Below are positions 6,269 to 61,800 of a stretch of DNA of 64,000 nt, piece after piece. A program made the position numbers and the translations under genes. This DNA comes from a virus. Numbering within the stretch: position 1 is the first letter of the stretch; every line of letters begins with the position of its first letter. The notes beneath the pieces were generated by a model. The model saw nothing but the letters and a program-made list of their open reading frames with translations. It had not been told where the DNA came from and did not search any database. Where the stretch lies: the IMG/VR virus record IMGVR_UViG_3300021602_000006, positions 1 through 64,000 of that record. The stretch is one strand, 5' to 3'.

Positions 6269-7405
6269 ATGACTATTAAAGTAAGTATCGTTAAAGGTTT
6301 CCATCGCAATGAAGTTGTTTCCGGCATCTTCCCACTCATTAAACCCTACCAAGAAGGTGCTTTTGGTGGTTTTGTTACCATCTATAATCCCGCACCTAAG
6401 AAAGGTGCAGTATCGCATCAGCGTGTCAAAGTTATGCCTGGCGACTTTACACTCCTGGATGAAGCAGGTGAAGTGTTGTCTGAACACGTCACTATCGCAA
6501 CAGGCAGCGGAAAGATTGAAACAGGTACGAATTACGAGCAAGCATTTGTTTCTGCTGAAACAGATGATGATGCTATGGAGCGTATCAGCGAAACATTCGC
6601 AATGCTCGATAAGATCACAGATGCTTGCGCCCAGGGTGTAGTGCGTGGCCTTGTTGTGTCAGGTCCTCCGGGTATTGGCAAGTCTTACGGTGTCGAAGAG
6701 CAGCTGAAGAAGGCAAATATGTTTCGTAAAATTGCAGGGCAAGATCCGAAATATGAAGTTGTCAGCGGCGGCGTTTCGAGCATCGGCTTGTACCAGAAGC
6801 TTTATTACAATCGCAGCCCGGAACAAGTGCTCGTGTTTGATGATTGTGACGGAATTATGCAAGAGGAAGAGTGTTTGAACTTGCTAAAGGCATCACTGAA
6901 TAGTGGAGATAAACGGCGTATCTGCTGGAATAAAGAAAGTCGTGTACTCGGCGATGGCGAAATTCCTAATGCGTTTGACTTTGAGGGTAGTATTGTTTTT
7001 ATTACAAATATCGACTTTGAAAAGACAATTGCACGTGGCTCGCGTATCGGATCACACCTGGGTGCTATTATGTCACGATGTCACTACTTGGACTTGGAGA
7101 TTGGGTCGATGCGCGATAAATTGCTTCGCATAAAACAGGTATGCAAGGGTGGTATGCTTTCATCATATCACTTTTCTCAAACAGAAGAAGAAGATATTCT
7201 GAAATTTGTTGTAGATAACTCCGAATATATGCGAGAAGTGAGTCTTCGTGCAGTCAAGAAGATTGCCGATTTTGTAAAGATGGATTCTGCAGGATGGTTA
7301 GAACCGACAGAGGCGACATTACTTATTCGCGAAGCAAAATTCAAGCGACTGTTGCTGAAGAAACAAGAAGCCGCTAAACAAGGCTTGGTATTGGCAGATG
7401 TTTAA
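6269..7405 (+). CDS. AAA+ family ATPase
   Basis: 378 aa. Walker A GPPGIGKS at residues 132-139, Walker B VLVFDDCD at 187-194, sensor-1-like IVFITN at 242-247, and Arg-finger candidates at SR 258-259 and 269-270. About 115 N-terminal residues before the ATPase core are unlike known domains. Many tailed phages carry a single-domain ATPase of this size with MoxR/clamp-loader-like motifs; what it remodels is unknown. It has its own promoter and a terminator hairpin placed inside the convergent HNH gene. Confidence 0.85.
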   Translation: MTIKVSIVKGFHRNEVVSGIFPLIKPYQEGAFGGFVTIYNPAPKKGAVSHQRVKVMPGDFTLLDEAGEVLSEHVTIATGSGKIETGTNYEQAFVSAETDDDAMERISETFAMLDKITDACAQGVVRGLVVSGPPGIGKSYGVEEQLKKANMFRKIAGQDPKYEVVSGGVSSIGLYQKLYYNRSPEQVLVFDDCDGIMQEEECLNLLKASLNSGDKRRICWNKESRVLGDGEIPNAFDFEGSIVFITNIDFEKTIARGSRIGSHLGAIMSRCHYLDLEIGSMRDKLLRIKQVCKGGMLSSYHFSQTEEEDILKFVVDNSEYMREVSLRAVKKIADFVKMDSAGWLEPTEATLLIREAKFKRLLLKKQEAAKQGLVLADV

Positions 7406-8082
7406 TTACTGTCAAATGCATTAGGGCCTTTCGGGGCCTTTTTACATTTGTCTCCATGGTAACGAGTATGATTGCTAGTTGTGATATAGGCAGAACAATG
7501 AGTGCAGGTTAAACGTGGCTTCTGTTTTGCAGCTATAGACATATTTAATTTTGCTTGCTCGGTTTTCGGTCCTCTTTGTTTCTTCCGAGTCTCTTCAGAT
7601 ACTTTTACCCCCAATCTTGTTCCGGGATGAGTTTTGAAGTGTTCTATATTTGCTTTACTTAGTTTTTCGCGTGTTTCTGGTGTGTGAGTTATTCCTTTGT
7701 TCCACGCAGGCTTGCCATATGAATTTGAATTCGCTCCGGATTGCGCCTCGGCTAATTGCTTTCGAATTATCTCATACTCACGTGAAGATATTTGGTGCCT
7801 GTCTTGATTTTGATTATTGGCTTTGGCAAGCATATTCAATGCGAATATCATACTTTTTTTGTGTTTCGTATCCAACACCATCCGAACCAACAGCTTATGA
7901 CAGATGAAATGGACCCTACCCGGTATTCTTACAATGTTTATTTTAGCATTGGTACCGCCTAATGATTTTGGTAGTATATGATGATTCTCCGAATATGTTT
8001 CGTTGCTGTATTCTTTTGATACAAGTGAGAGATACCATTTTAGGTATTTGGTATTCTTCGATATTGATTCTATGTTGTTCAT
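7402..8082 (-). CDS. HNH homing endonuclease (copy 1)
   Basis: 226 aa. N-terminal HNH core ENHHILPKSLGG (His-His at 34-35) with VHFICHKLL, a NUMOD3-like segment SNSYGKPAWNKGITHTPETREKLSK, and a C-terminal zinc finger CTHC...HGDKC. The order (nuclease, NUMOD, finger) is that of free-standing phage homing enzymes. It is paralogous to 41002-41622. The ATG at 8082 is preferred to a TTG at 8097. It lies tail-to-tail with the ATPase gene, sharing a TTAA that supplies both stops. Confidence 0.88.
   Translation of the reverse strand: MNNIESISKNTKYLKWYLSLVSKEYSNETYSENHHILPKSLGGTNAKINIVRIPGRVHFICHKLLVRMVLDTKHKKSMIFALNMLAKANNQNQDRHQISSREYEIIRKQLAEAQSGANSNSYGKPAWNKGITHTPETREKLSKANIEHFKTHPGTRLGVKVSEETRKKQRGPKTEQAKLNMSIAAKQKPRLTCTHCSAYITTSNHTRYHGDKCKKAPKGPNAFDSN
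7422..7444 (+). terminator. terminator of the ATPase gene
   Basis: AGGGCC/GGCCT stem with one bulged G and a TTCG loop, followed by TTTTTA. It lies within the 3' end of the opposite HNH gene. Confidence 0.65.
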
Positions 8083-8087
8083 ATAGT

Positions 8088-8095
8088 TATTTATC
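8088..8095 (-). promoter_or_regulatory. GATAAATA motif at HNH start
   Basis: On the minus strand GATAAATA ends five bases before the ATG at 8082, inside a 7-bp inverted repeat (GTTATTT/AAATAAC). A transcript starting here would be nearly leaderless. Confidence 0.45.
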
Positions 8096-8125
8096 AAATA
8101 ACATAGGGTCTCGGGTAAAATATTG

Positions 8126-9787: not shown

Positions 9788-9955
9788 TTGCCAGAATCTA
9801 ATATTCGTGAAGTTACCGATCGTGTTTCGTATTGGAAAGATACGGGTCACTATTTCTTTTACTGGTGTGGTGACGAATTCCTCCTCAAGGCAACCAACGA
9901 TGAAGATGCTATCAAAGAATCTTATCGCCTCCAATTTGATTTAGAATCTTGTTAA
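9788..9955 (+). CDS. small protein with TTG start, DEDA motif
   Basis: 55 aa from TTG at 9788, with AAAGGTGA upstream. The sequence YWKDTGHYFFYW..EFLLKATNDEDAIKESYRLQFDL resembles the C-terminal motif (F-x-D-E-D-A-x-x-F-K-L-x-F) of the array at 35864-40005, so it may be a distant member. No ATG lies in frame. Confidence 0.6.
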   Translation: MPESNIREVTDRVSYWKDTGHYFFYWCGDEFLLKATNDEDAIKESYRLQFDLESC

Positions 9956-16890: not shown

Positions 16891-17149
16891 CACAATACGT
16901 TATCCAGTAAGCGATAAGCCTACTGTAGAGGAACTCCAACGAATACCTAAACCCATAATACAGATGTGGCGTGATAATACTATGTGGAGAGAGCATGGAA
17001 CAGTTTCGCCCGCCGGCATGTCAGCATGGTACTGGAGACCTCGTACACAAGAGCATGTCAGGACAGAAGATGCTATAGCAGCGGATAAAGCCGAAGTAGC
17101 CTTTCTAAGAAGACTTATTGCTAAGTGGGACGATGATGACCATCTTTGA
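16877..17149 (+). CDS. MTIFDT-family small protein (copy 3)
   Basis: 90 aa. MTIFDTIRYPVSDKPTVEELQRIPKPIIQMW is the best-preserved family N-terminus. The C-terminal part ends FLRRLIAKWDDDDHL. Overlaps the previous gene by 14 bases. Confidence 0.75.
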   Translation: MTIFDTIRYPVSDKPTVEELQRIPKPIIQMWRDNTMWREHGTVSPAGMSAWYWRPRTQEHVRTEDAIAADKAEVAFLRRLIAKWDDDDHL

Positions 17150-17426
17150 TGTTATCAAGTGTCGCATAGACGAAGACTTTCTAATAGAAGACCTAAGGCG
17201 AATACCTCAGCAAATACTATGTGATTGGTGTAGAGAAGAATTAGGTACAGATTCAATGCTGTCTGCTCCAACATGGATACACGAGCATATGAAGTTGACT
17301 GCTCACTATTATAATGGTGGAATGTTTCAAGCACACTATAGAAGAAGATACTTAGACTCATTAAGAAAGAGAATAAGAGAGTATGAAGAACCGTTGAAAC
17401 AAATGGACGAAGAAGGAATAGATTGA
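17133..17426 (+). CDS. MTIFDT-family small protein (copy 4)
   Basis: 97 aa from the first of two ATGs. TIFDVIKCRIDEDFLIEDLRRIPQQILCDWCREEL, later RRRYLDSLRKRIREYEEPL. Third of three tandem copies; the fourth is at 2429. Function unknown. Confidence 0.72.
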   Translation: MMTIFDVIKCRIDEDFLIEDLRRIPQQILCDWCREELGTDSMLSAPTWIHEHMKLTAHYYNGGMFQAHYRRRYLDSLRKRIREYEEPLKQMDEEGID

Positions 17427-29695: not shown

Positions 29696-30821
29696 ACTGC
29701 ACACTCTCGTAAATCAGGCTTATAGTCCAGGCTAACAACCGAGATTGACCTTTGTGTCTAATCTCCGTGCCTAAAACCTGCAGACAAATCCCCGAACCAG
29801 ATTCGCCTTTGTGCGTGCTTTATACACGCGAGTTATGTGCGCGAGTATATACATACACATACGCGCATAAGCATAGTAATCCCTGATGCCTAAGATGTTT
29901 GTTCTCGGTAAAGGATCTGAACCGGCCTCAAGACGGAGAACGAGACATCGTCTGACTAAGTCTAAAGTCTGTCGTCGTTTCCCTTAACCTTTGACATTTT
30001 AGCCTAACATCGCGTTCTTTGTCTTGAACCGGTTCAGAAGTCAGCATCGAGACATCGACTTTGCTAGTCGATCTCTAAAGGATCATAGTAACATCTCGCT
30101 TTATAGCTAAGATGAACCATAGATTCTATCTTACGTTTAGCGAGACTTTAGTTGATTCTTTAAAGATCAATGGCCTTAAATTGTGTATGTCTCGGCAACG
30201 TTGCACGCAATAACCTGTGTTGTACAGACACTACCGAGGCACGTTCCAAGCGTTAGTCAAGGGACTGGCTGCTCACGCATTTATAACGAAATTATAAGGT
30301 AAGACGCAGGTCTTGTCAACGATTTTTGTCATTAACATCTATGTAGTCTCGCTATCTTAGGTATAGGCCTTGTAGGTTAAACTCTAAACAGCGAGACTTA
30401 CTGTTAAAGACTCTAAGGTCCTGTGATTCGCCGGCGATCCTTAGATGATTCAGACTAATATCTCGCTCAGACTTCTTATGGTATCTTATGGTGGAGAACG
30501 CGAACTTACACAACTCTGATCAACTAACAGACTAACTTGATTCAAAGATTATAGACTAATAGTCATTATACTGGGCCGATAGGGAAGTAAGCACTAACAC
30601 ACTTAAGAGTTAGTTGGTGCCTACTTACCTGTCTCGCTCTCCAAAAAAGGTTCTTCCTGAGAAGTCGTAACTAGCAAGCGAGGTTGGTAGATAGGGCTAT
30701 CTCGCTCTCCAAAAAAGGTTCTTCCTGAGAAGTCTAACCTGCAAGCGAGGTTGCCCTAACGTCTCGCCCTCTAAGCACGCCCCTAACACTGCCACACACG
30801 GTTATAAAGATGTAACAGTGC
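29696..30821 (+). other. 1.1-kb non-coding tract with repeats
   Basis: No gene is supported. It contains eight or more CTCGCT/AGCGAG motifs, two 35-bp direct repeats (30632 and 30700, period 68), a 21-bp sequence shared with 18548-18568 (one mismatch), and alternating CGCGCA/ACACAT strings at 29,825-29,865. It may hold an origin, packaging or structural-protein site. A promoter begins at 30,822. Confidence 0.6.
30632..30734 (+). repeat. 35-bp direct repeat x2 (period 68)
   Basis: TCTCGCTCTCCAAAAAAGG and the following 16 bases are identical at 30632-30666 and 30700-30734. Each copy is followed by GCAAGCGAGGTT, so CTCGCT and AGCGAG bracket a 44-46 base potential hairpin in both. Confidence 0.9.
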
Positions 30822-34318: not shown

Positions 34319-34963
34319 ATGCAGCAACTAGTAAAGCAAAAGTACACTATGCAAAAACAACTTACATTAGCGCAAGCGCAAGCTGCAACACTGTTGCACG
34401 CAAACAACAACACCCTAACTGTTGCACAAGTGCAGCAGCTACTTGCTAACGCGAGCGTTACGTTTGCACAAATACTGTATGTAACAGCAGTCCAAACAGC
34501 AGCCGCGCACAAAGCACAAAACATACAAAAAGTAACTAGCGCGAACGTAATACTTTGCAGCAACATTAACGCCCATACAAGCGTATATGCTAACAAAGTA
34601 AAGCGCAGCGCGGCGAAGTACAGCAACAATAATGCAGCAGCAATAGCAGCGTTTACAGCGCAGCAAAACTACTTTGTACATACCGCAGTGTACAGCATTG
34701 TGCAACACGCACAGCACAGCGACAAGTTTTATTTGTATGCAATATACAACAACGCAAACAGCGTGTATATGCACAATAATGCTATTGTAAGCAAACAACA
34801 CATTGCACAATACCTTACTGCAAGCGCAGCTAAAGCACTGTTGCAGCCTAGCGACACTGTACACAATGTTACACATAACATAACGCACAACGTCGCAGTA
34901 CGCACTATTGCATTAAGCAACATAGTAAGCGTGACAGCACGTAAGCAGCTACTAACTAAGTAG
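34319..34963 (+). CDS. Ala/Asn/Gln-rich protein with no Gly, Glu or Trp
   Basis: 214 aa with zero Gly, Glu and Trp, two Asp, one Pro and three Arg; rich in Ala, Asn, Gln, Thr, Val, His and Tyr. GG, GA and TC dinucleotides are nearly absent from the gene. Helical N-half (QKQLTLAQAQAATLLHANNNTLTVAQVQQLLANASVTFAQILYV) could be two helix-hairpins; the rest has no known motif. The ATG is only about 13 bases past the expected start point and has no ribosome site; ATG at 34349 is an alternative. Might be structural or a low-complexity nucleoid-like protein; unknown. Confidence 0.65.
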   Translation: MQQLVKQKYTMQKQLTLAQAQAATLLHANNNTLTVAQVQQLLANASVTFAQILYVTAVQTAAAHKAQNIQKVTSANVILCSNINAHTSVYANKVKRSAAKYSNNNAAAIAAFTAQQNYFVHTAVYSIVQHAQHSDKFYLYAIYNNANSVYMHNNAIVSKQHIAQYLTASAAKALLQPSDTVHNVTHNITHNVAVRTIALSNIVSVTARKQLLTK

Positions 34964-35413: not shown

Positions 35414-35863
35414 CAACGTGTAACTGTTGTAGCAGCTAATGTAAACTGTTACAACATTAACAAAGTAAAGTCTCGTTATATTTGCGCGGTCAGCACTATA
35501 AATGCGCGAGACTGTTGTTTTTTTACAACAGCGGCATGCCGCGGGACCATTTTTCTATCTAATCTCTATAGGTCCCGATTTTTCTATCTAATCTCTATAG
35601 GTCCGATTTTTCTATCTAATCTCTATAGGTCCCGATTTTACTATCTATCTGACTATAGTGATGGGTTCTACTATCTAATCTCTATAGGACCCGGGTTCTG
35701 CTACCTATCTAACCATGACCCCAGATTCTAAACTTTGGTCGGTCTATTTTTCCATACCTTAGAAAATTTTTACAGAAATTTTTCTATGATGCAAAGGTAG
35801 GCCCTACCTACACTACTATATGAACTCTTGAACTACTCAGCTGAAGAGTGTATACTGTACTGC
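35414..35863 (+). other. non-coding tract with 29-bp tandem repeats
   Basis: No gene is supported up to about 35,828. TGTAACTGTTG/TAACAACAC-like palindromes lie just after 35,413, then the tandem array (35550-35690) and AT-rich DNA (35,750-35,820). No promoter for the following array was recognised. Confidence 0.65.
35550..35692 (+). repeat. 28/29-bp tandem repeat
   Basis: CTATCTAATCTCTATAGG starts at 35555, 35584, 35612 and 35671, separated by TCCCGATTTTT-type spacers; a degenerate copy lies at 35641. The core carries CTATAG palindromes. Confidence 0.9.
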
Positions 35864-36094
35864 ATGATGTCCCCGATCCTATATGGTTCAGCCAATGTAC
35901 CTATAACAAAGACTTTATATAAGTTCTATGTTAGACAACGTACTGATATTACTTACTATAAGATAATGCGTGCCTGGTTGGATTCAAATTGTACAAAGAA
36001 CTGGCAATGGTACAGTTTAATCGATAGTATAGTGTTCTGGGACGAGCAGGATGCAATAGCTTTTAAACTCAAGTTTCATGAATTCATAGAATGA
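35864..36094 (+). CDS. DAxAFKLKF-array protein 1
   Basis: 76 aa. KIMRAWLDSNCTKNWQWYSLIDSIVFWDEQDAIAFKLKFHEF shows the array motif: W-L-x-x-N ... N-W-x-W ... F-x-D-E-x-D-A-I-A-F-K-L-K-F. The start is uncertain: tandem ATGs at 35864/35867 or TTG at 35828 in frame. From memory, short phage proteins ending 'DAxxFKLxW' are common in T4-like phages and unnamed. Confidence 0.7.
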   Translation: MMSPILYGSANVPITKTLYKFYVRQRTDITYYKIMRAWLDSNCTKNWQWYSLIDSIVFWDEQDAIAFKLKFHEFIE

Positions 36095-36315
36095 CTTACG
36101 TAGGACTCTTCAAGAATAAAACGCGGCAGCGTTCTATCACTATGGACTGGAAGTATAGTAAAAAACTGTATGGAGAGTATGTTGAGTGGTTAAACAGTAA
36201 TGCTGGGCCAGAAGGGTATGAATGGTGGTGGAAGAGAGGAGACTTGGTAGGGGAAGGTATTCACTTCAAGGATGATGCAGTGGCTATTATGTTTAGGTTA
36301 AAGTTTGAATTATGA
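36091..36315 (+). CDS. DAxAFKLKF-array protein 2
   Basis: 74 aa. YVEWLNSNAGPEGYEWWWKRGDLVGEGIHFKDDAVAIMFRLKFEL. A basic N-terminal extension (FKNKTRQRSITMDW) precedes the conserved domain. ATGA overlap on both sides. Confidence 0.75.
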   Translation: MTYVGLFKNKTRQRSITMDWKYSKKLYGEYVEWLNSNAGPEGYEWWWKRGDLVGEGIHFKDDAVAIMFRLKFEL

Positions 36316-36503
36316 GTATAGGGTGGGTTTATATAGAGGAACCCGAATATGTTCAGCCACCTTTATACTTTATATGGTATATGTGGTTAAACGATAATGT
36401 AGGTAAAGGCAACTGGCGATGGAATAATTGTCAAGGTAGAAATTTTATTACCTTCTCTAATAAGGTAGATGCAGTAGCATTTAAATTAAAGTTTGAATTA
36501 TGA
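36312..36503 (+). CDS. DAxAFKLKF-array protein 3
   Basis: 63 aa. YMWLNDNVGKGNWRWNNCQGRNFITFSNKVDAVAFKLKFEL is the clearest single-domain version. ATGA overlaps on both sides. Confidence 0.78.
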   Translation: MSIGWVYIEEPEYVQPPLYFIWYMWLNDNVGKGNWRWNNCQGRNFITFSNKVDAVAFKLKFEL

Positions 36504-36700
36504 GTTATGTTAGCTTTTCAAGTAGGCATCGGGATCAGGACGACCGACTCGATAAAGAGTTGGAAGACTGGGTAGTAGATAATGTTACCGAAATACAAAT
36601 AAACTATGCTTCGTGGCGAGTAAGCGGTAAAAGAGTAATGGTAGGTGTAATGTTAGATAAAGAGCAGCAGGTATTCTTTAGGTTAAAGTTTGGAAAATAA
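36500..36700 (+). CDS. DAxAFKLKF-array protein 4
   Basis: 66 aa. ELEDWVVDNVTEIQINYASWRVSGKRVMVGVMLDKEQQVFFRLKFGK. The DA pair is replaced by QQ while FRLKFG is kept, a diverged copy. Confidence 0.72.
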   Translation: MSYVSFSSRHRDQDDRLDKELEDWVVDNVTEIQINYASWRVSGKRVMVGVMLDKEQQVFFRLKFGK

Positions 36701-36954
36701 TGCGTAAATGGAAGTATGTAGTGCCTTACACCGATGCTATGAGAAGGTGTTGCTCGGCATCGTCTATGTCCCATGAATATCTTCGAATGCTTAAATGGTT
36801 TGCAGATCACGATTTAGAGCGTGGAGAAGATTATGAATGGTCGATGCCGATTACTATATACATAGGAAATATCGAATTTGAAGATATGCCTTTGTTTGTT
36901 TATTTTGATTATGAGGAAGATAGATTAGTTTTTAAATTAATGTTTGGTGTATGA
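36700..36954 (+). CDS. DAxAFKLKF-array protein 5
   Basis: 84 aa. LKWFADHDLERGEDYEWSMPITIYIGNIEFEDMPLFVYFDYEEDRLVFKLMFGV. The motif is degraded to EEDRLVFKLMF. Starts on TAATG. Confidence 0.72.
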   Translation: MRKWKYVVPYTDAMRRCCSASSMSHEYLRMLKWFADHDLERGEDYEWSMPITIYIGNIEFEDMPLFVYFDYEEDRLVFKLMFGV

Positions 36955-37037
36955 AATTTGAATTGCATGATGACCAGGTTCTATATTTTGCAAGGGAAGA
37001 TGACGCTATAGCATTTAGATTAAAGTTTGGATTATAG
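36951..37037 (+). CDS. 28-residue mini-gene: array motif only
   Basis: MKFELHDDQVLYFAREDDAIAFRLKFGL, starting in an ATGA overlap and ending directly before the next ATG. Only the last conserved strand-helix of the family remains. It may be a degenerating copy or a functional microprotein. Confidence 0.6.
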   Translation: MKFELHDDQVLYFAREDDAIAFRLKFGL

Positions 37038-37511
37038 ATGTATAACGTATATTACGAATTGCATAGTGACCATAAATGGGGTTGTAGGTACTGGGTCGAA
37101 AATAATGTCAGGAATAGTGGTGGTAACGGAATTATCTACCATAACTATACTATGAATATTGCCGATAGGGCTTGGTTAGAAAGTGATTATACTGTTAATT
37201 TGGTAAAAAATAGGCATGGCGAATCAGGAATATTGCCATCTACTATCTTGGAAGATTTTAAATATGTTAAATTGAAAGCAAGGAATCTAACTATGATGTC
37301 TATGAGAAAATTTAGTGAGGGTATGGTATATGTTGCCTTCCCGCCTGTAGACAGAAACAATTACAGTGTGGTAGATTGTAAAATACCCGACGGAGTCGAG
37401 GAATGGTTAACGAAGAATACTAAATGTGATTGGAGTACTATTGGTGATAGACGTACTGGAGTATTTCTGAAAGATGAGGATGCGGTTGCATTTAAGTTAA
37501 AATGGATGTAG
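37038..37511 (+). CDS. DAxAFKLKF-array protein 6 (long)
   Basis: 157 aa. CRYWVENNVRNSGGNGIIYHNYT near the start and VEEWLTKNTKCDWSTIGDRRTGVFLKDEDAVAFKLKWM at the end: the W-x-x-x-N start of the domain seems to occur twice, so this may be two fused or nested copies. Confidence 0.75.
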   Translation: MYNVYYELHSDHKWGCRYWVENNVRNSGGNGIIYHNYTMNIADRAWLESDYTVNLVKNRHGESGILPSTILEDFKYVKLKARNLTMMSMRKFSEGMVYVAFPPVDRNNYSVVDCKIPDGVEEWLTKNTKCDWSTIGDRRTGVFLKDEDAVAFKLKWM

Positions 37512-37590
37512 TTATAAACGCATAGAACCAAGGCGAAAAATTTGCGCTTAACTGCGCTTCGCGCCAGGTACACCGGGCCTAACTCGATAT

Positions 37591-39264
37591 TTAATTTTCA
37601 GGTAGATATTCGACCATAATATTTTTAATCAAGTAAGGCGACGGGATAGCATGTTGAAATAGCATTGTGCCTCTGCTCTTTGCATTAGTTTCATTATCAC
37701 TTTCGACTTCAGTAGTATAAGATTTATCTTCGCCATTTCTCACATATTCGAATATTACCTTATACTTGTTCTGCTTTATATCGGCGCGTCTTTTATCCTG
37801 TTTGTCATACTGTGAAGCTTTATGGGTATATTCGTGCCATAATAAATCACTCTGTTTTAATGTATTAAGTATTTCTTCTGGCTGAGATCTATCTAAGGCA
37901 TATATCATTACAGCATATCTGCCTAACTGAGATATTTCTTCATGCTTATCCGGTCGTAAATCTCTTGACATAGCATGTTCACCAGCTTCGAATCGTTTCT
38001 TATATGTGTTTCCGTAATAGACGGCAGCTTCTCCTTGGTCTGCAATTTCGTTCAAAACATCCTTCGGTATCTGTAATCTGGCACCGTAGAATCCCTCTAT
38101 TAGATAACATAGTTCACCTATACCCATGTCGTCTGAATAATAGTATTTAAGGAGAGATTCTTTTCCAAGTTTAACCATTTCTTCAGTTAATGTATATGAG
38201 TGCCTGCGTAATTCTCTCAATGTATTGTAGTCATGAGATATAGCTATAAGAATTGCTTTTTCACTTATTTCAATGGTCCAGTTGTTATCAAGGAATTTCG
38301 AAATTACTTCCGATGCATTATTGTCACTTCTATTACACCAGGCTATCTGTACTTGTTCATTCAACAAGTCTTTATCGTCAGCTGCGCCGACGGCAAATGC
38401 AATGTCAGCTATTTTATGAATACTAAAGTTGGCGCATCTTAATAGTACTTCAGTAGTTACATAACCTTCATGTATCATACTGGTTATTTTATTAATGTTG
38501 CTTAATTGTATTTCTTCTGCTATTTCTTGAGGATCTATGTCTCCGACCATTTTAACAATTTCATCATCGTCATTATATAAGTTAGACGGAACAACAAATA
38601 TACCTGCTAATTTCTTAGATGAATTTATTTTGTCAGCCCAATTATTTACTGTCTGTGCAAACCAGGGAGGAGGATTACCGTATACTGTATTACTTACACC
38701 TAATGCTACGTCACCACTATTTTTATTAATGAAGGGTTTTATTAATACTCGCGCTACGGGTTTACTGATATTATTGTCGCCGGGACCGACAAGGTATGCT
38801 ATAATTGTGCCTTCTTTAACATCTGCTGCTATATACTTTTTATTGGAACCAGTTTCGAGATTCATGCACGACGACCAGCCTCGATCGGTACTCATACCTG
38901 CAACATCATACGGGTGGCGACTTATAATAATTTTAGATTTATTGCTAAGATTAGAGCCGGCCCTAGCAGGATCATTGGTAAAACGCTTTATTATATTTGG
39001 ATCAGTCAGAATTTTACCTATTCGTATTTGTCTATTATCTTTCTTTGCCAATCCTGCTTTGTAATCTGATATTTCGTAGCCAGCAGCTTTTATAGCTCTT
39101 TCGACATACGGATCTGGTTGGGCAGATGTATTATCTTCCGGAGTAGGTAATTCTATACGATACTTTCCATCAAAGATATCGTTATACTTAGACTTATCCC
39201 ATCCTTTCACATATTTTCTATATTGACTAGGTTTGAGTGCTTCGACTAATTCTTGTATTCTCAT
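37591..39264 (-). CDS. large phage protein of unknown function
   Basis: 557 aa. Landmarks: MRIQELVEALKPSQYRKY, YVERAIKAAGYEI, SRHPYDVAGMSTDRGWSSCMNLETG (about 115-140), KEGTIIAYLVGPGDNN, and a helical C-half of repeated 'xxIADxAFAVGA / HEISQLGRYAVMIYALDRS' blocks. The AGMSTDRGW-x-SCMNL motif is, from memory, shared by proteins of several large phages with no assigned function. It lies opposite and between two halves of the array, suggesting later insertion. Confidence 0.72.
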   Translation of the reverse strand: MRIQELVEALKPSQYRKYVKGWDKSKYNDIFDGKYRIELPTPEDNTSAQPDPYVERAIKAAGYEISDYKAGLAKKDNRQIRIGKILTDPNIIKRFTNDPARAGSNLSNKSKIIISRHPYDVAGMSTDRGWSSCMNLETGSNKKYIAADVKEGTIIAYLVGPGDNNISKPVARVLIKPFINKNSGDVALGVSNTVYGNPPPWFAQTVNNWADKINSSKKLAGIFVVPSNLYNDDDEIVKMVGDIDPQEIAEEIQLSNINKITSMIHEGYVTTEVLLRCANFSIHKIADIAFAVGAADDKDLLNEQVQIAWCNRSDNNASEVISKFLDNNWTIEISEKAILIAISHDYNTLRELRRHSYTLTEEMVKLGKESLLKYYYSDDMGIGELCYLIEGFYGARLQIPKDVLNEIADQGEAAVYYGNTYKKRFEAGEHAMSRDLRPDKHEEISQLGRYAVMIYALDRSQPEEILNTLKQSDLLWHEYTHKASQYDKQDKRRADIKQNKYKVIFEYVRNGEDKSYTTEVESDNETNAKSRGTMLFQHAIPSPYLIKNIMVEYLPEN

Positions 39265-39268
39265 CGAC

Positions 39269-39276
39269 TATTTATC
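39269..39276 (-). promoter_or_regulatory. GATAAATA motif at start of 37591-39264
   Basis: On the minus strand GATAAATA ends four bases before the ATG (GATAAATAGTCGATG). Confidence 0.5.
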
Positions 39277-39288
39277 GTACAATACCTA

Positions 39289-39317
39289 TTGACATTCTTT
39301 ATTAAATACTGTACAAT
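39289..39317 (+). promoter_or_regulatory. plus-strand promoter for the second array part
   Basis: TTGACA-17-TACAAT. The leader holds a 13-codon frame before the ATG at 39352. Confidence 0.7.
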
Positions 39318-39351
39318 ATTTAAATGATTTATGTAGATCAAATCTCGAAAT

Positions 39352-39573
39352 ATGGTAATTGTTAAATTCAGTCTATTTAAAGAGTGGAAGCCGTATGATT
39401 TATTCATGTCATTGGAATTTTTTGATAAGGTTACAGTTTTTTGTAAAGATAAATTTGATATGGTTGTATTAGATAACTTGATGGATAATTATAGGGATGG
39501 AATATGTCCTGATCATATTGAGTTTGAAGATGAGGCAGACGCAATTATATTCATATTAGGATTTTGGGGATGA
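39352..39573 (+). CDS. DAxAFKLKF-array protein 7
   Basis: 73 aa. Motif at the end: HIEFEDEADAIIFILGFWG; the N-terminal part (KEWKPYDLFMSLEFFDKVTVFCKDKF) is diverged. Weak ribosome site. Confidence 0.7.
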   Translation: MVIVKFSLFKEWKPYDLFMSLEFFDKVTVFCKDKFDMVVLDNLMDNYRDGICPDHIEFEDEADAIIFILGFWG

Positions 39574-39794
39574 TTAGATTTGATATCGAGTGGGACATTC
39601 ATGGTGCAGAAAAATGGTGTTCGAAAAATATAGGTGAACGAACTTATTGGATACATAATAAGATAGGCGGGCATGGCTGGGAGATAAGGGAGAATAAAGA
39701 AGGATTAGGAAAACCTGATCGTGGGCCAAGATTCTTTATTATATTTCAAGATGAAGCCGATGCTATTGTATATAGACTAGCGTATGGTAAATAA
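39570..39794 (+). CDS. DAxAFKLKF-array protein 8
   Basis: 74 aa. GAEKWCSKNIGERTYWIHNKIGGHGWEIRENK..FFIIFQDEADAIVYRLAYGK. The W-C-x-x-N start, a long middle and the DEADA end are clear. ATGA overlap, TTGGGG upstream. Confidence 0.75.
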   Translation: MIRFDIEWDIHGAEKWCSKNIGERTYWIHNKIGGHGWEIRENKEGLGKPDRGPRFFIIFQDEADAIVYRLAYGK

Positions 39795-40005
39795 TTGGAT
39801 GTCAGATGAATACTTTATTTCATGTAATGAAGGTGGTGTATTTTTCGAACATCACGACAATAAATACCGAATATGGTTAAACAAGAATATAGGCAGACAA
39901 AATTGGCAGTTCTATGGAGCGGGTAGTACACATCCTCTTACACTACGCTTCGAGACAAGAGAAGATGCATTAGCATTTAAACTATACTTCAATTTAAATA
40001 ACTAA
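39784..40005 (+). CDS. DAxAFKLKF-array protein 9
   Basis: 73 aa. YRIWLNKNIGRQNWQFYGAGSTHPLTLRFETREDALAFKLYFNLNN. Well-preserved domain. Overlaps the previous gene by 11 bases; ATG at 39799 is an alternative start. Confidence 0.75.
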   Translation: MVNNWMSDEYFISCNEGGVFFEHHDNKYRIWLNKNIGRQNWQFYGAGSTHPLTLRFETREDALAFKLYFNLNN

Positions 40006-40642: not shown

Positions 40643-41005
40643 ATGCAATACCCTTATCCAAATTTAGCAGTATCAACAAATCAAAATACCATAGCGTTAA
40701 ATGCTAATGTGGCAGCAGTTGTTAATGCTATCAACTACAAAACAATTATTCCGTATGGCGATTATGGCGGCCCTACTGTATATTATTTCCAAGTAATAAA
40801 CAACGGGTTAGGTAATATAATCTATACGATGTTTGATAAAGATACAACACTCGGGCTTGCAAGTTTTATGGTAAGGTATGGTGCAGCTACTACAATTAGA
40901 GATGTCATTCTAATGCCTTTCCCAAGATCGCAAATAGATTTACAACACTTAATACTACCTTATATTCCTATCCAAACTTTGGAAAATGGAACTGTAACAC
41001 CTTAA
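40643..41005 (+). CDS. possible virion-associated protein
   Basis: 120 aa, MQYPYPNLAVSTNQNTIALNANVAAVVNAINYKTIIPYGDYGGPTVYYFQVI.... Asn/Tyr/Ile-rich beta-type sequence like tail or neck components and a late-type motif in front; not recognised. Shares TTAA with the convergent HNH gene. Confidence 0.6.
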   Translation: MQYPYPNLAVSTNQNTIALNANVAAVVNAINYKTIIPYGDYGGPTVYYFQVINNGLGNIIYTMFDKDTTLGLASFMVRYGAATTIRDVILMPFPRSQIDLQHLILPYIPIQTLENGTVTP

Positions 41006-41622
41006 ACTTTCTCTTTACAATTATCAAAGTGCCATCTATTCATATTTCCGATATTTTTACTTGTTAATCCGCAGTGCGGGCAAGTAATTTCGGGTCTATT
41101 TTTCCATGCCGCTTTCATATCATCTTTTGTTTCCGTTGTATGTTTCTTCCCATAAAAGAAATTATTGGATCCAGTATTAGACTCCTTAATTCTAGAAATT
41201 TGCCATTCAGAAATTTCTTTACCAGTATGTAATTTACTTAAGAGTAATTTAACTTTGTCGGAATGTGTTTTTCCAAACATAGGATTATAGGCACCTGTGT
41301 TATATTCTGATAAACCCTTTCGTAAATACTCAAACTGTCTCGATGTTAGTTTATGTCTATGTTGTCTATATTTGCTTTGAGTCATCTTATTTAACGCATT
41401 GAACATTTTCTTTTTAGCCATACCGTCTACCATTTTAGTTAATAAATAATGGCATATAAAATGTTCCCTTGCAGTCAATCGAACCATATTGTTGGGTGTA
41501 TTATCGCCGCCTAACGATTTAGGAATAATATGATGATTTTCTGCATAACACGCTAATTGTCTATTCTTAGCGCGTAGAATTAATTTATTATACCATAATG
41601 TATATTTGCTATTATTAAACAT
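41002..41622 (-). CDS. HNH homing endonuclease (copy 2)
   Basis: 206 aa. HNH core ENHHIIPKSLGGDN (His30-His31) with REHFICHYLLTKMV, NUMOD3-like NPMFGKTHSDKVKLLLSK, and C-terminal finger CPHC..HFDNC. Domain order and many residues match the gene at 7402-8082, so the two are recent relatives. Inserted against the operon direction, ending in the same TTAA arrangement. Confidence 0.88.
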   Translation of the reverse strand: MFNNSKYTLWYNKLILRAKNRQLACYAENHHIIPKSLGGDNTPNNMVRLTAREHFICHYLLTKMVDGMAKKKMFNALNKMTQSKYRQHRHKLTSRQFEYLRKGLSEYNTGAYNPMFGKTHSDKVKLLLSKLHTGKEISEWQISRIKESNTGSNNFFYGKKHTTETKDDMKAAWKNRPEITCPHCGLTSKNIGNMNRWHFDNCKEKV

Positions 41623-50329: not shown

Positions 50330-51174
50330 ATATTAACCCTCTTTTCTAAAATAGCAATCATATCGTCAGTTAACCAATCTTTTGTATTATAATGGAACGG
50401 AAGCGTCTGCTCGTAGTTACCTATCTTAAATGTTCCTTCATCCGTAAAATAGGTAGGGATACATTTTGTCCAATCATCGGTTAAATATTTCTCGTTTATA
50501 TTCTGCAAATGTGATTTCATATGAACAAAGGACGGCATTGACGATGCATTTCCGAAACATTCCTTTTCTATTCCCAATAACTTAATAGCCAATGCATAAG
50601 CTACATCGCCCGATAATACTTTTGGGCGAGTTTCGTCTAAATAGTTGTAGTAGAATCTTTCCCAATTTTCAAATATTAGTTCTACCATTTTAAATAATTC
50701 TGCTGTTAAGGTAGTTTTCTTAAAATACATAAATGCAGTGTATACATTAGGTAATTCGTTGGCAACAAAAGTTTCTCTATATTTTGTAGATGTAATCACT
50801 TCTCCGCGGAATGTTCTCGGTTTATCTGTGATCCAGATATCTTTATGCGACATTATATCCCACCAATCAGTTATATCAGCCGGAAAAAGCATATCTGCAT
50901 CTAACACGACAGTTTCGTCGAACGGAGTCATGTGGTAATATTTCCACTTATTGTTTATCTTCCATTTAGAATACAATGCTTGGTCGGTCCACGGTATATC
51001 CACTATGTGATCAAATACATCAGCATACTTATCAGGAACACTGTCTGTAGTTGCTAAAGCAACCTGGTGCACACCGGCTTGTGTATTTTTAATACTTAGT
51101 GCTAAGGCATAAGCAAGCCTGACATAGTCGTCCTTCTTAGTATTCTGTGCTAAAATTAAATATCCACGAGTCAT
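50317..51174 (-). CDS. glycosyltransferase-like protein (GT8-like, copy A)
   Basis: 285 aa. TRGYLILAQNTKKDDYVRLAYALALSIKNTQ, FDETVVLDADMLFPAD (D-x-D, about residue 92) and VYTAFMYFKKT. The N-terminus and metal site match the paralogue at 51794-52675 (SRGVLMVAHNNTEIDYFKIACANALMV, FIDCDYL). Transfers an unknown sugar. Confidence 0.75.
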   Translation of the reverse strand: MTRGYLILAQNTKKDDYVRLAYALALSIKNTQAGVHQVALATTDSVPDKYADVFDHIVDIPWTDQALYSKWKINNKWKYYHMTPFDETVVLDADMLFPADITDWWDIMSHKDIWITDKPRTFRGEVITSTKYRETFVANELPNVYTAFMYFKKTTLTAELFKMVELIFENWERFYYNYLDETRPKVLSGDVAYALAIKLLGIEKECFGNASSMPSFVHMKSHLQNINEKYLTDDWTKCIPTYFTDEGTFKIGNYEQTLPFHYNTKDWLTDDMIAILEKRVNIWHP

Positions 51175-51797
51175 ACTTGTTCCTTTTTTAATCTATTATA
51201 GAATGTTTGATAAAGAATATTATGGGCTTTTGCAGCAGATTTAATCGATACGTATTCTTTTCCGTCGTATGTGATAGGTATGGTATTTTTTGGCAGTTTG
51301 CCAAACATAACATTCTTATCCCCTAGTTGTCTTGCTGTCATATATTCTTTACTTTTCTTCGAGTATATTCTTTTGCTGGGCTGCGATTTTCCAATTTTCA
51401 ATTTAGTATCTTCTGATTGTTTTGTGCCGAATAGCGGACTTTTATCACCTGTCCGATTAGCGGAAAATATTAACCGTTGCTCATCCGTCCATACCCGTCC
51501 TGTGCCGCCTTCACCGCCGTTGGTTAAATTTAACAAAGGCCCTAGTTTTAAATCTTTTCTGCCAAGTTTTGCTATTAGTTCCTCTTCTAAGAATAATGCA
51601 AATTCTCTGTCCAACTCCGTATAAATTCCTATATTAGGTTTAATATTATTCTTTTTCATAAATTGCAATCGCTGAATGAACGGGCTCTTTCGTTTAGCTC
51701 TCAAATGATCCCAGGCCCTGTTCTTTTGACCCATACCAACATATATGGGTTCGTTGTTTCTCGATGGATCATAATAAATATAAGTGTAGAAATTCAT
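51171..51797 (-). CDS. GIY-YIG homing endonuclease
   Basis: 208 aa. N-terminal GIY-YIG variant YTYIYYDPSRNNEPIYVGMG with catalytic Arg in NRAWDHLR, Glu in LEEELIAKLG and LTNGGEGG; then NUMOD3 SPLFGTKQSEDTKLKIGKS and a C-terminal helix-turn-helix (YVSIKSAAKAHNILYQTFYNRLKK). Placed seamlessly between two glycosyltransferase genes by ATGA overlaps at both ends. Confidence 0.88.
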   Translation of the reverse strand: MNFYTYIYYDPSRNNEPIYVGMGQKNRAWDHLRAKRKSPFIQRLQFMKKNNIKPNIGIYTELDREFALFLEEELIAKLGRKDLKLGPLLNLTNGGEGGTGRVWTDEQRLIFSANRTGDKSPLFGTKQSEDTKLKIGKSQPSKRIYSKKSKEYMTARQLGDKNVMFGKLPKNTIPITYDGKEYVSIKSAAKAHNILYQTFYNRLKKEQV

Positions 51798-55844: not shown

Positions 55845-58800
55845 TTAAGGTATACTTTTGCCCATTTCCTCTTTTAAGAATATGGCTTCGGGTGTTTGGG
55901 CATACCAAAGTCCGCCCAACGGAGTGCTCGTTATGCTAGTATATGCAGGATCTACAACTAATGTCCACATTAAGGAATTGGTAACAGGGTCATATTGATT
56001 TTGAAATTCATGTATCAACTCGTTAGCTGAGTAATTATTGCCTAAGTAATATACTCTTGTATTAGGTTGATATGCAATTTTGCTAAAGTCGTCAGGCCCG
56101 GGATCAGGCACAGGACTAGCTGCCCAATCGTTATATGATGCTTCCGTGGTCGGGTCTGCGGTCGGGTCTGCTGCATTCCATACAGTATCCTCGGCTGTAA
56201 TTGGCATAATATTATCTTTTTCTACCCATACTGTATCTGATATAATATGTACAGTAGGAGCAGTCCCATTTGTTCCTCTGCGAATTAAACCTAATTCCCA
56301 CGTATTAGCTAATATCGGGTCTGGAGTTTTCAGTCTATATTCTATTCTTTCACCATTTATCCATAAGACACCCGGTATAAGTGTCGGGTCAGGTAAGATA
56401 TGGGTTGTAATAGGGTGCGTTATAGGATCTACAAAGACTATAATTGTATCTAAGTTCTCAGTTAATGTAGTAGGTATAGGTATATTATTCATTAATGTTC
56501 CGGAGAATGCATCTGCATTTCTGTAGAAATCCTGACCTGTATTCACATTTGTATTTTCTTTGAAACTTATTGTATTAGGTAACAACATCAGATATTCGTC
56601 TTGCGAACTTTCTGGAGCATCCCACGGTACCGAATCAGTGCCGCCAGCATCTATTAATATCTGTGATACAACAGGGTCACCCACTGCATCCCATATTTCT
56701 CCCCATCCCACATACGGTGCAACAGTTAATGGTGCCAATATACTACTGATATCGTTAACTGGTAACTTTGTATCTGCATTAGCAACTAAATCATCTACTG
56801 CATTGCCGATAGCGGTCTCATTTCTATCTACATAATTATTAGCGATTAATAGTTGGCCACCATCAAACCACACAAATGCCACTAAAGAAGAGGCCCCGCT
56901 AGGATCATTATAGAAATATACAGTATATGTACTATCATCATTATACTCTACATAATAGTCCTGACCGTATAATAGTATTATCGAATCTTTATAGACTGCT
57001 ACTATATCACGCGGTGTTATAAATGTTTGTGGATTATTTTCAGTCAAAAGACTGAAAGTATAAGGATATAATTGTGAATATCCTTTCTTTGATGGATCGG
57101 GTGTTGTTAATTCGACAGTGAATACATTGTCCATGCCATTTGTAAGACTTCTGTCTACTATTTGGGCAAGTGTATTACCATCCAATATATAAGAAGACGG
57201 GGAAATAATATCTCCTGCCCAATCTGGCCCGAATTGTATCTTAGATCTTAATTTAGGGTATATACCTAATGCATTAGGGTCAGGATATGCAACCGGTTGT
57301 CCATCTACCATAATATGTAATACACCATCCGATGATCCGCCTGGTGCTAAATCCGATGTTACATAAGCACTGGTATAATCTCGTACCTGTGTGTGATAAG
57401 GTTTAGAATCTGTAATAAAATTAATAATGTTATTGATCTGATCAGGCACATATAATCTGTCTTGAGTCAACGGTATATTATTTTCTTTAATATATATGTA
57501 AGATGATTTAAATACCCAATCTGGATTCTTTTGCTCGCTGATTACATAGTTTATCATAGAAAAGAATAATTCGTTCTGATCTATTAAGTATTGTTCTATC
57601 ATAATCTGTGTTCTAAATGCATTAAGTAACTCTCTTAATTCGACAGATAAATTATATAAATTCTTTACTGTATATAGTGTGTCTAGTAACATAATTGCAC
57701 TATTTTCAATACCCACCGTTTCGAGACTAAGTACAGGACTTGCTGCATCTAGTTGTACCACAGCATATAATATAAACCGATTGTCTATTGTTCCGTTAGA
57801 TACCTCTACTATATCACCTACTTTAAGCTGTGATGTAGTTAGTGCTGTATTTGCTTCAGCCAATGTTTGAAACACTACCGTAGGTATTATGTCTTCATAC
57901 CCGATTGCATACCAATTAGTATATGCCCAGAAGTTATTAGATGACACACTCGAATTCCATCCGGGGTTATTATCTCTGATAGGTATATACTTTAATAAAG
58001 AATTTGCTGATTGAACAAATACTTTTCTCGAATTGTCTAATGATATAAACATGCTTTGACGAGGACGGTATTCTGCACCGTATTTTTCACTGTTACTTAA
58101 CATAGGATCTGGTATAGCAAATACTTCACCCTGCTCGACAATATCCCAGCCGTATATATCCCACGGCATATCACGGACGATGGTGATAGCAGACATATTA
58201 TCTGAGGTCGAGAAGGTTTGTGTATATCCACACAGACTATCGACCATTTTATTCCAGAATTGATCTGTTACTATGGATGTATTATCACCTTCCCTGAAAA
58301 ATGCCCACTGAGCATGTTCTTGGTCGTCTCTCTCAGATAACCTATATTTAATCTGTACATTATTACCTTTATATGCTAATATCGACTGTACATTATAGAA
58401 CATATAAGAATTATTTGTCGATGTCTGCTGTATAGGGCAGAAGAATGCAAATCCCTGACTCTTGGGTGACTGTAACATTGAAGATACATCTAACGCCGCC
58501 ATTGTCCTATTTTCTACATTAGGTTTATCTGTAGTATTTAGAACCCAGAAATAATAATTGACCTGTGATATATTAGTAAATCTATTGGATGAAGTATATT
58601 GGACGTATGTTGTCGTATCTCTCGGAATTCCTGTACCTGTATATAGAGCAGGAGGAACTGAACTCTTCACCCATTCATATATGGCTACTGTACTGCCCGG
58701 GAATAGTTGACCCCAGTGATCTCTCCTGTATATATCATTATCTGTCTCAGTCTCACTGCCATCTAATGCAATCGGCTGTTCATAATATACATATTTTAAG

Positions 58801-61800
58801 GAAGATAAATCCCACCATAATTGACCTACCTGACGTTCAGCAAATATTATATTCTCGCTGAATAAAGTAGGATCGCCCGTTACATTATAACTAGCAGGAT
58901 CTTGTGGCGAAATGTATGTTATATTTTGTTTTGCAGGCCCAGGTAATATATTCTTAAATGGGTCATAGATAGGTAACTGAATAATTTCTGTATTATCTAA
59001 TACTCCGAATATACTTGCACTCTCAAATAAAGATGTATTGATTAAGTCTGCTTGTTGTCTGAAGGGTATTAAAGCATACCACTCGCCACTGGGTTCCCAC
59101 ATCGATACATTCCATTTACCGGCTATATCGTCCACCCAAATTTTCTCATTAAGTTGTATATAATCTAGCGGCCAGCCCCAATCCGGACTGACAGCAAATC
59201 GCATAGTCTTAAATAATAACATATTTGTAAAATCTGCATAATTGCCTATATCACTATTTGTTATAGGTACACCGGCTAGTGTTGTTATGTAGTATGCATT
59301 ATATGTTATAAGAGTATCGGGGTCTGTGTATGTGCCCGGTGCATTATAATCGGTTGTTGTATAAGGTAATATACCTACGGCATAATTATTGGCAGGAATA
59401 GGTTTTCCGTTTACAACTTGCTGTAGTGATATCATATTACCAAAATCAGTTCTTTCGCCCGTTGCCGAATCCCATAACTGCGGGATTATAGTTACATTAG
59501 CAACAGGTGCATAACCGCTATTAGTCGTTGGATTAAGAACGGTTACTGTAAGAATTTCACCGACTACGCCTGTCGTAATCGAGAATGTTGCATCAATATC
59601 TGATAGTGAGCCGGGTGTTGCTCTTGCTGCAACAATAGTATCAGCAACAGTATAATCAATACCTGCTTCTATGATATTAACTGAGACGATACGACCAGAC
59701 CAATCAACGACTGGCTCTAATACTGCATTAGCACCTATACCACCGAATGCTAGATTAATCGATAATGTAGATACTACGCCGTAATCAGTTAATAATAATA
59801 AATCATTATTATTATCTTTAGTAATAGACCAGTTATTATTAAAGTTTGTCATCTTATAGACAGACCAGTCTTCGACAAAATTCTTTGCTACCCATACAGT
59901 ATCATTTTCTGTAGGATTTAAATCTGCTGTACCCCAGCCCACTGCTGTCTGCGTTACATCAAACGATGACCAAGTTACATCATTAAAATTTACATATCCA
60001 GCATTAGGTAGTGGATAATCTATATTAGTGGTGGTAGGGAATACTAAAGAATATGCAGGATCGGCCGGCCTTACTGTCCATAATGCTGTATCATTTATAT
60101 CTATATCTATAATATTATCTCTAGCTGCATCTTTAATGATGTCGCCCTGCCAAACAGCATATAGGTTATCTAGTGCATGAGATTCTGATCCCGAATTAAG
60201 ATCGATAATGGGTGCCTTCAAATATCCGGCGCCATTATCTGTCATATCTACTCTGGAAATTTTACCTAGATTGTTTAATATAATATAAGCCTTAGCAACC
60301 CGTGTTGTTAAGGTCAGTGTCCAATAAGTACTGGTTGACGATGGTGTATTCCATTGGTTGTCGGCTACATTGCTAGAATAATATAGCTTATTGCTATAAA
60401 TATCCGGATACATTACTACAGCTTTTTCTGCATAATTTACCGATCCATCCCAATCTGTCCATCCCGGTAAAGGTTCGGCATCAGGCTCACCAATAACTAC
60501 TTTAGGTACAGACGTATATATATTTTCTGCATTCAGTACATTAATCCGTTTAACTGTCCCTAATGTCGATGGAACATAGTTTAATCTAGCAACAATAATA
60601 TCACCTGTATTTTGCTCGGGTTCTAAAATAAATTCCGTAGATACCTGCTCGATTGTATTACCAAATTTACTAAGTCTTAAAGCCCATTCTTCGAATACCT
60701 GTATAATTTCGTTGCTCTGAATCTTCGTAGACCTAAACAATTTTTCAAATGCCTGCTTAGTACCTTTCTGCCTAATAGCACCTTGATAGAACAAATATTG
60801 AACGTCGTTGGCAACTTGCAGATTATCTAGATAGCTTTTACTTTCATATCCTATCAGATGTCGACCTAAATCTTCTAAAGAAGGGTTATCGATTGTCACA
60901 TTGGGATCATAGTAGTATCTCATATTATCTACTATTGTATCGAAGTTAGGCATAAGCTGATTATCTAATACAAGATAACCAGGAGCTTCCATTTTGCCGT
61001 ACCAGCCATTACTTCTAAATCCATTGAATCGAATACGTTGTTGTCTCGATCTTAGTAAAGGAATATAGACAGTGTCATTGAAACTAGTTACATTATCTAT
61101 TATAATTACGTGCTCGGTCTCCGATGTGTTGACTTGCAAATAGTAAATTCCTCCAGATGCAAGTGACGTAGGCTCTACAGATATAGTCCTACCTTCTCTA
61201 TCAGTAGTTGTATTATTTGGCGGCATAGCAACACCAAACTTATCTAAAATACTATATACACCGTTAGAGAGTGATTCAACATCGTTTGGATATCCTCGAG
61301 AAACAGTTAGTGTCGCTTTGTTACTTAAAGGGCTTAATTGAATAGATGCATCTGGTGCCCAACTTGAGTTCAGCCAAAATAAGAATTGTTTTGCAGAAGT
61401 TAACCAATCATTCAATATATTTGTGTCTTGATTCACATCTTGGAATTGCCAACCTCTGGATTCTAAATAGGCACCCCAACCTATTAGAAAATCAAATACT
61501 GCCTGAGATGTCTTTAATACTGTACCGTAAGGAATCTTAGTTATTGTTTGACTCGATACGGGTTTATATATTACAGATACACCACCTTTTATAGGTAACG
61601 ATTTAAGCTTTTCAAAACTGCCTGTTCTGAATTGCTGTACTGTCTGTGTAACTAAACTAAGATAATATATACCATTATATCTAACAATATCACCAGCATT
61701 ATATGTGGAACCTGCTACAAAATATAAGAATGGTTCAGGTGTGCCGCCTATAGTTACATCTATTAATATAGAATCTGATCTATCGAGTGTTATAAATTCT

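Follow-up and report, generated by a model that had tools for sequence, protein, structure and literature searches.

The jumbo phages G and 121Q are known to carry tandem arrays that exceed 30 genes (PMC5646251; repeated in PMC13282480), and the first of these sources reads them as the outcome of tandem duplication. Bacillus phage G also carries, according to PMC7824862, a lineage-specific expansion of one tiny domain, a zinc ribbon, to about 35 copies. Here we analyze a comparable array in a viral DNA stretch of 64,000 nucleotides (the window), which covers 64,000 of the 70,489 bases of the contig in IMG/VR record IMGVR_UViG_3300021602_000006. On the plus strand, between positions 35864 and 40005, nine genes and one 28-codon open reading frame (ORF) encode a common C-terminal domain; the proteins of this family consist of one domain, are about 55–100 residues long and occur in a clade of jumbo phages. 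The copies are homologous, share a predicted fold, overlap with their neighbors, represent old orthologues and are gained and lost as whole genes. The explanation that we favor, with a confidence somewhat short of even, places the array within a large jumbo-phage family, as one of its loci; this family would form a library of small proteins that combine a conserved core with variable surfaces and bind host or defence factors.

The resemblance to the arrays of phages G and 121Q lies in the number of homologous genes in tandem (31 distinct members in the array region of the related contig G002) and in genome sizes above 200 kb, clusters of the domain being carried by contigs of 363–385 kb and by the 469-kb Sinorhizobium phage Phosso. 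However, the G/121Q-type copies are very similar to each other, whereas those of the present family are strongly diverged (the best paralogues within the window are 29–62% identical over 16–68 residues), are joined by ATGA overlaps and are also dispersed around the genome. Furthermore, the zinc ribbon of phage G is a different domain, and the present family has no conserved cysteines. No match at E ≤ 1 was found in the 497,513 bases of phage G with a profile that matches four of the eight phages in another set, nor was there one in PBECO4, which we used as a stand-in for 121Q and take to be related to it. We found no description of the family in the openly licensed literature that we searched, nor in the available passages of PMC11242549, PMC6102473, PMC7824862, PMC13282480 and PMC5646251. 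Since there is neither a match in phage G nor a description in the literature searched, the domain family appears to be new.

The contig itself is probably a fragment of a jumbo-phage genome, because part of the longest protein encoded in the window (2,663 residues) is similar to proteins encoded by three phages whose genomes are larger than 280 kb (PA5oct, Salicola phage SCTP-2 and Agrobacterium phage Atu_ph07); the record is a 70-kb fragment, and its own genome size is deduced from relatives. Other contigs are designated below by G numbers and individual loci by L numbers.

Homology of the array members

A profile constructed from 60 domain sequences of other phages' contigs, with zero sequences from the window, was compared to all 1,398 stop-to-stop ORFs of at least 25 residues in the window. 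The ten array ORFs were the ten best hits, with E-values from 2.6e-14 to 1.1e-3, followed by the next window ORF at 0.059 and the best reversed decoy at 4.3. In a leave-one-out procedure with a window-only profile, nine of nine full genes were recovered (E from 3.6e-10 to 7.5e-3), and a profile search over the complete 70-kb record returned the same ten matches only. The specificity of profile A7 is illustrated by the finding that, at E ≤ 1, it matched 54 ORFs of Phosso and 38 of G005, compared to none of 22,002 reversed ORFs. These results bear out the proposal of the initial annotation that the nine genes and the mini-gene of 28 residues are homologous.

The array was originally described as a single tandem row linked by ATGA overlaps, a picture that holds in part. 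The ten members are present; however, a 557-residue gene on the minus strand (37591–39264), not a domain member, interrupts the row, which therefore consists of two blocks of seven and three. The first block begins with 35864–36094, which has an orthologue in G003 (L044:5904-6104), and continues with 36091–36315 (orthologues in G001, G002 and G003), 36312–36503, 36500–36700, the divergent member 36700–36954, a 5'-truncated remnant of 28 codons (36951–37037) and a 157-residue gene (37038–37511), in which the domain is the C-terminal part, at 37293–37508, with orthologues in G001, G002, G003 and G005. The second block comprises 39352–39573, the weakest full-length member (E of 0.0011 with the outside profile), 39570–39794, with an orthologue in G002 (L048:9086-9298), and 39784–40005, with orthologues in G001 and G003. 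The ATGA overlap links five of the eight neighboring pairs, the other three showing a TAATG overlap of one base, a TAG-ATG abutment and an overlap of 11 bases. Across six genomes, an overlap of exactly ATGA joins 44 of 68 neighboring pairs.

The gene at 36500, taken at first for a decayed copy, is not decayed, because its deviant C-terminal motif is conserved in the orthologues from two other contigs, G001 and G003 (about 51% identity over 68 residues). Two presumed solo relatives, at 9788 and 25815, turned out not to be domain members (outside-profile E-values of 32 and 87, respectively). Two further candidates, 17109–17423 (E of 0.059) and 2426–2737 (E of 2.1), score too weakly for membership.

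Separately, the frames at 2426–2740 and 17109–17426 encode similar-looking proteins beginning with MMTIF, which may be distant relatives of the domain.

Copy number, age and turnover of the copies

A 120-residue anchor gene downstream of the array, on the plus strand (40643–41005), not itself a domain member and 60–80% identical across five related contigs, was found in five other contigs, all five of which have an array at the same place. At E < 0.01, there are 14 members near the anchor in G003, 13 in G005, eight in G001 and five in G004. Over whole records, profile A1 at E ≤ 1 yields ten copies in G001, 29 in G002, 14 in G003, 37 in G004 and 22 in G005; profile A7 at E ≤ 0.01 yields 40 in G006 (385 kb), 38 in G004 (363 kb), 28 in G005 (369 kb) and 21 in G007 (238 kb), and smaller numbers in G012 (8), G010 (7), G011 (6), G014 (5), G009 (3), G008 (2) and G013 (2). 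All these counts are lower bounds because the contigs may be incomplete. Among 15 named phages examined at E ≤ 1, the domain was detected in Phosso (44 copies), Atu_ph07 (8), PA5oct (4) and Paride (4), and was not detected at this threshold in the other 11, namely SCTP-2, Lu11, JA11, pEa_SNUABM_3, P-SSM2, T4, HTVC008M, phage G, PBECO4, XacN1 and phiKZ. An iterated profile at E ≤ 0.01 identified 51 ORFs in Phosso and 31 in G005, with no reversed decoys; 37 of the former and 18 of the latter lie in groups of at least three, a degree of clustering never reached in 1000 random placements. Considering that Phosso has 735 annotated features, about 7% of its annotation corresponds to a single undescribed domain family to which no function is assigned in the annotation. 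Thus, the comparison among related phages that had been recommended at the outset reveals wide variation, from two to about 50 copies.

A single cellular locus, with 30% identity, was found on a contig of a Crocosphaera metagenome-assembled genome (L212); profile A7 at E ≤ 0.01 found no match in that bacterial genome (G015).

Judging by sequence comparison, the copies in the window are old cross-phage orthologues and not products of a recent local amplification as the initial annotation had supposed, because orthologues in different phages are closer to each other than are most paralogues within the window; for instance, 39784 and its G001 orthologue share 65% identity over 66 residues. Younger-looking pairs are found in G002 (e.g., L048:45 and 232, with 48% identity over 61 residues).

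Whole genes are the units in which the array turns over, and the ATGA junctions where this happens are nearly identical. Two adjacent genes of G001 (L045:7083-7289 and 7289-7516) match two genes of G003 (L044:6267-6473 and 7028-7255) that are separated by three extra whole genes, with an ATGA overlap at every boundary. The middle one of these three is the gene whose 3' end the window retains as the 28-codon ORF: the ORF at 36951 corresponds to the last 26–28 codons of L044:6643-6819, which is intact in G003, with 85% identity over 26 residues and 81% DNA identity over 80 bases. In the G002 array, 77 of the 81 blocks of similar DNA cross the 3' end of a gene or stop there in each of the two copies, compared to a mean of 13.5 and a maximum of 47 in 1000 phase shifts of the gene ends. 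The overlaps would couple translation, such that one mRNA could yield the products of a long array, and the near-identical junction DNA, which closes one gene and opens the following one, would allow whole genes to be inserted or deleted by recombination while the coupling stays intact.

The codon usage at the junction weakly supports an additional constraint at the DNA level, strong only in G002. The lysine at position 4 of the FKLKF motif is encoded by AAG in 24 of 27 G002 copies, against a background of 31 of 75 (p = 1.4e-5), and in 19 of 25 copies pooled from the window, G001, G003 and G005, against 65 of 133 (p = 0.016); taken one by one, the genomes other than G002 do not depart significantly from background. 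A pairwise comparison of same-codon usage within and between genomes points in the same direction for K, G, R and F, though not for D, E and N.

The ratio of nonsynonymous to synonymous substitution rates (dN/dS) was calculated for 22 gene pairs by the NG86 method. It was finite for 17, with all values between 0.09 and 0.61, and saturated for the other five; YN00 gave no ratio for 20 of the 22. Diversifying selection, which had been suggested for this array, is therefore not supported, the finite pairwise ratios being below 1 throughout. Positive selection on whole genes was likewise rejected, as no finite ratio exceeded 1; pairwise tests may miss single selected sites.

These data also bear on the rather unlikely alternative that the amplification is largely selfish or neutral and fills a headful-packaged genome, with the copies kept by drift. 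For jumbo phages, tandem duplication has been proposed to accompany the growth of the genome (PMC5646251), copy number is variable, and one copy in the window is a truncated remnant. However, orthologues are retained with the low ratios given above, open frames and coupling are kept in nearly every copy, and the copies are old.

One gene pair stands apart: L045:7083-7289 and L044:6267-6473 are 85% identical in DNA, with a dS of 0.24, compared to 0.9–1.7 for three other array genes of these contigs, G001 and G003, which suggests that a single gene was exchanged between lineages.

Predicted fold, the conserved member and possible roles

The AlphaFold2 model of the protein encoded at 36312–36503, obtained with an alignment of 69 sequences, is a confident one and has a mean predicted local distance difference test score (pLDDT) of 84.4 and a predicted template modeling score (pTM) of 0.67. 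It adopts a β-α-β-β-α arrangement, with a strand at residues 4–7, a helix at 16–29, strands at 35–40 and 43–48, and a helix at 51–61 that is formed by the DAxAFKLKF motif. Hydrophobic residues predominate in the conserved columns (W25, L26, W35, F48, A54, F57, L59 and F61), with the addition of D53, at the start of the second helix, and of K58/K60. Variation affects a large part of strand 1, of helix 1 and of the loops. No conserved set of residues with a catalytic appearance was seen in the alignment columns. We read the model as a conserved scaffold combined with a variable remainder.

Besides the array members, the family includes a conserved single-copy member, represented in G004 and G005 and found in 41 uncultured viral contigs, that is related to PA5oct gp210 and Paride_0072 (annotated as a hypothetical protein, Wroclawvirus); the G005 protein is 49% identical. 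PA5oct and Paride carry only about four copies of the domain per genome and no long array. The profiles of the conserved member and of the array members match each other with a profile-profile probability of 96%. The model of the conserved member has a pLDDT of 84.6 and a pTM of 0.74, with the two weakest of the five models below 60, and the two predictions, made from alignments without a common sequence, show the same order of secondary structure elements. Profile homology and predicted structure thus agree in placing gp210-type proteins and array members in one domain family, in keeping with the structural homology that the initial annotation had expected a prediction to reveal.

Both models also match small proteins of uncultured Caudovirales in BFVD (e.g., A0A6J7WFP6 and A0A6J5LU99), which are themselves uncharacterized, with Foldseek probabilities of 0.98–1.00; among the matches of the 36312 model in this viral structure library, none has an E-value below 0.001 despite probabilities of up to 1.00. 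A fold search of the PDB with the same model returned nothing at E ≤ 0.001, and all VIA-align rows for both models fall within the stated background of the tool, the best chain for 36312 being an integrin inhibitor (Z of 6.0). At the sequence level, no usable match for the domain was obtained in Pfam, PHROGs, NCBIfam, PADLOC or the PDB sequences; isolated family matches with E-values of 0.003–1, mostly involving one member each, were attributed to chance. A tblastn comparison of two array members and the 157-residue gene to the named phages produced nothing convincing.

Several chains of pterin-4a-carbinolamine dehydratase/DCoH are found among the 50 structural rows of the conserved member, at Z values of 3.0–4.1, within background; no match to this family was listed at E ≤ 10 in Pfam for any of the 99 members scanned. 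The DCoH fold shows a similar F-x-F-x-D-x3-A-x2-F spacing. Chains of KH, RRM and ACT-type domains and of EF-G appear among the structural rows of 36312 as well (Z of 4.3–5.5) and would be compatible with RNA- or DNA-binding regulators of a KH-, RRM- or ACT-like fold. We consider this interpretation improbable: the Z values lie inside the background, the net charge of the proteins is mostly slightly negative (means of -0.1 to -2.7 per genome), and no shared GXXG motif is seen in the conserved columns.

The genomic context of the conserved member raises another possibility. In 35 of the 40 viral loci checked, a 41st (L211) having been left out, and in both named phages checked, the conserved member has a phage ClpP gene upstream of it (CLP_protease, PF00574; E of 7.9e-66 in G006 and 8.1e-60 in PA5oct); in the five loci where it was missed, the upstream sequence extends over 1,269 bases or fewer. 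Of the phages or contigs tested for ClpP, all nine that bear the domain have it, compared to two of the eight that lack the domain, a comparison confounded by relatedness. Phosso has two ClpP-like genes, at 30200–30811 and 115008–115694, the second located among domain copies at 113–118 kb. On these grounds, the conserved member could be a founding adaptor that delivers substrates to ClpP, and the arrays could supply variable adaptors that target host proteins for degradation. We regard this as decidedly improbable, and a shade more so the fully modular version, in which one conserved adaptor stays beside clpP while each of the dozens of swapped ones in the arrays guides its own host or defence target to the protease. 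The link to ClpP is not exclusive because MazG and a gene of 344–383 residues are also found near the conserved member; moreover, the co-occurrence follows phylogeny, and a long distance separates the main arrays from ClpP (in G005, at about 355 kb and 136 kb, respectively).

Under the explanation that we favor, the hydrophobic core would serve as a common scaffold and the variable remainder would carry specificity, each copy binding a different putative partner through its variable surface. The partners would most likely be host or defence proteins because accessory sets of this type vary between related phages, and the copies would form a swappable accessory set expressed from translationally coupled mRNAs. 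Several observations weigh against this library of binding proteins. The finite dN/dS ratios are all below 1; several orthologues are 65–78% identical in amino acid sequence between phages, a slow pace of change if there is an arms race; the similarity of DNA at the gene ends is partly explained by the conserved C-terminal protein motif; and the family includes a highly conserved single-copy member with a housekeeping-looking role.

The more specific idea of the initial annotation, an anti-defence arsenal whose copies would each block one immune protein of the bacterium, fits the small size of the proteins, their variable surfaces and the gain and loss of whole genes, with copy numbers that differ among related phages. 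It appears unlikely, given that no defence-related neighbor was identified, that selection as measured by dN/dS is as described above and several copies are conserved in distant contigs, and that no family match was found, PADLOC covering defence proteins only and not anti-defence. If the copies do bind different targets, as the library of binding proteins implies, a single fold would be the key to dozens of unexplained phage genes and would offer insight into the gain and loss, unit by unit, of genes for host interaction in giant phages. The single-copy member of Paride, whose record names PAO1 as the host, makes the question of function directly testable.

Surroundings of the array

A long gene on the minus strand of the window (55845–63836) is similar to virion proteins, so that structural genes are not far from the array, and a role of the domain proteins as virion or injected components can be envisaged. 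We deem it very improbable. In the PA5oct record, notes of electrospray ionization tandem mass spectrometry mark detected proteins; none of the four family members has such a note and some of their neighbors do, and the missing notes therefore argue weakly against a virion role.

The N-terminal half of the 557-residue gene that splits the array is similar to proteins of other jumbo phages (phrog_17056). The G002 array is split by a relative as well (L012:2766-4256), but its place among the orthologues differs, which gives the impression that the gene, or the array around it, has moved. Probable HNH-like genes, recognized by eye, are located at 7402–8097 and 41002–41622, and a probable GIY-YIG-like gene, identified likewise, at 51171–51797; all are possible homing endonucleases. 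A 214-residue frame at 34319–34963 is of low complexity and rich in A, Q and N, and lies amid many short frames.

Upstream of the array, at 35555–35688 on the plus strand, there are four exact copies of CTATCTAATCTCTATAGG. Similar repeats, CTATAGGNCC, precede the arrays of G003 and G002 (L044 5089-5201 and L013 5124-5183), where they come after a GC-rich inverted repeat and a T run; L046 has a single copy, at 7127, and L045, L047 and Phosso have none. The end of CTATAGGNCC resembles that of the T7 promoter, CTATAGG. A different motif, TATAAT plus a leader (TAYAATNNNCAYATHGCAACAAA), is absent from 35.2 to 64 kb of the window and has 34 matches within 3799–35208 (33 on the plus strand and one on the minus strand), compared to 0.18 expected; many small genes in the left part of the window thus seem to have their own promoter.

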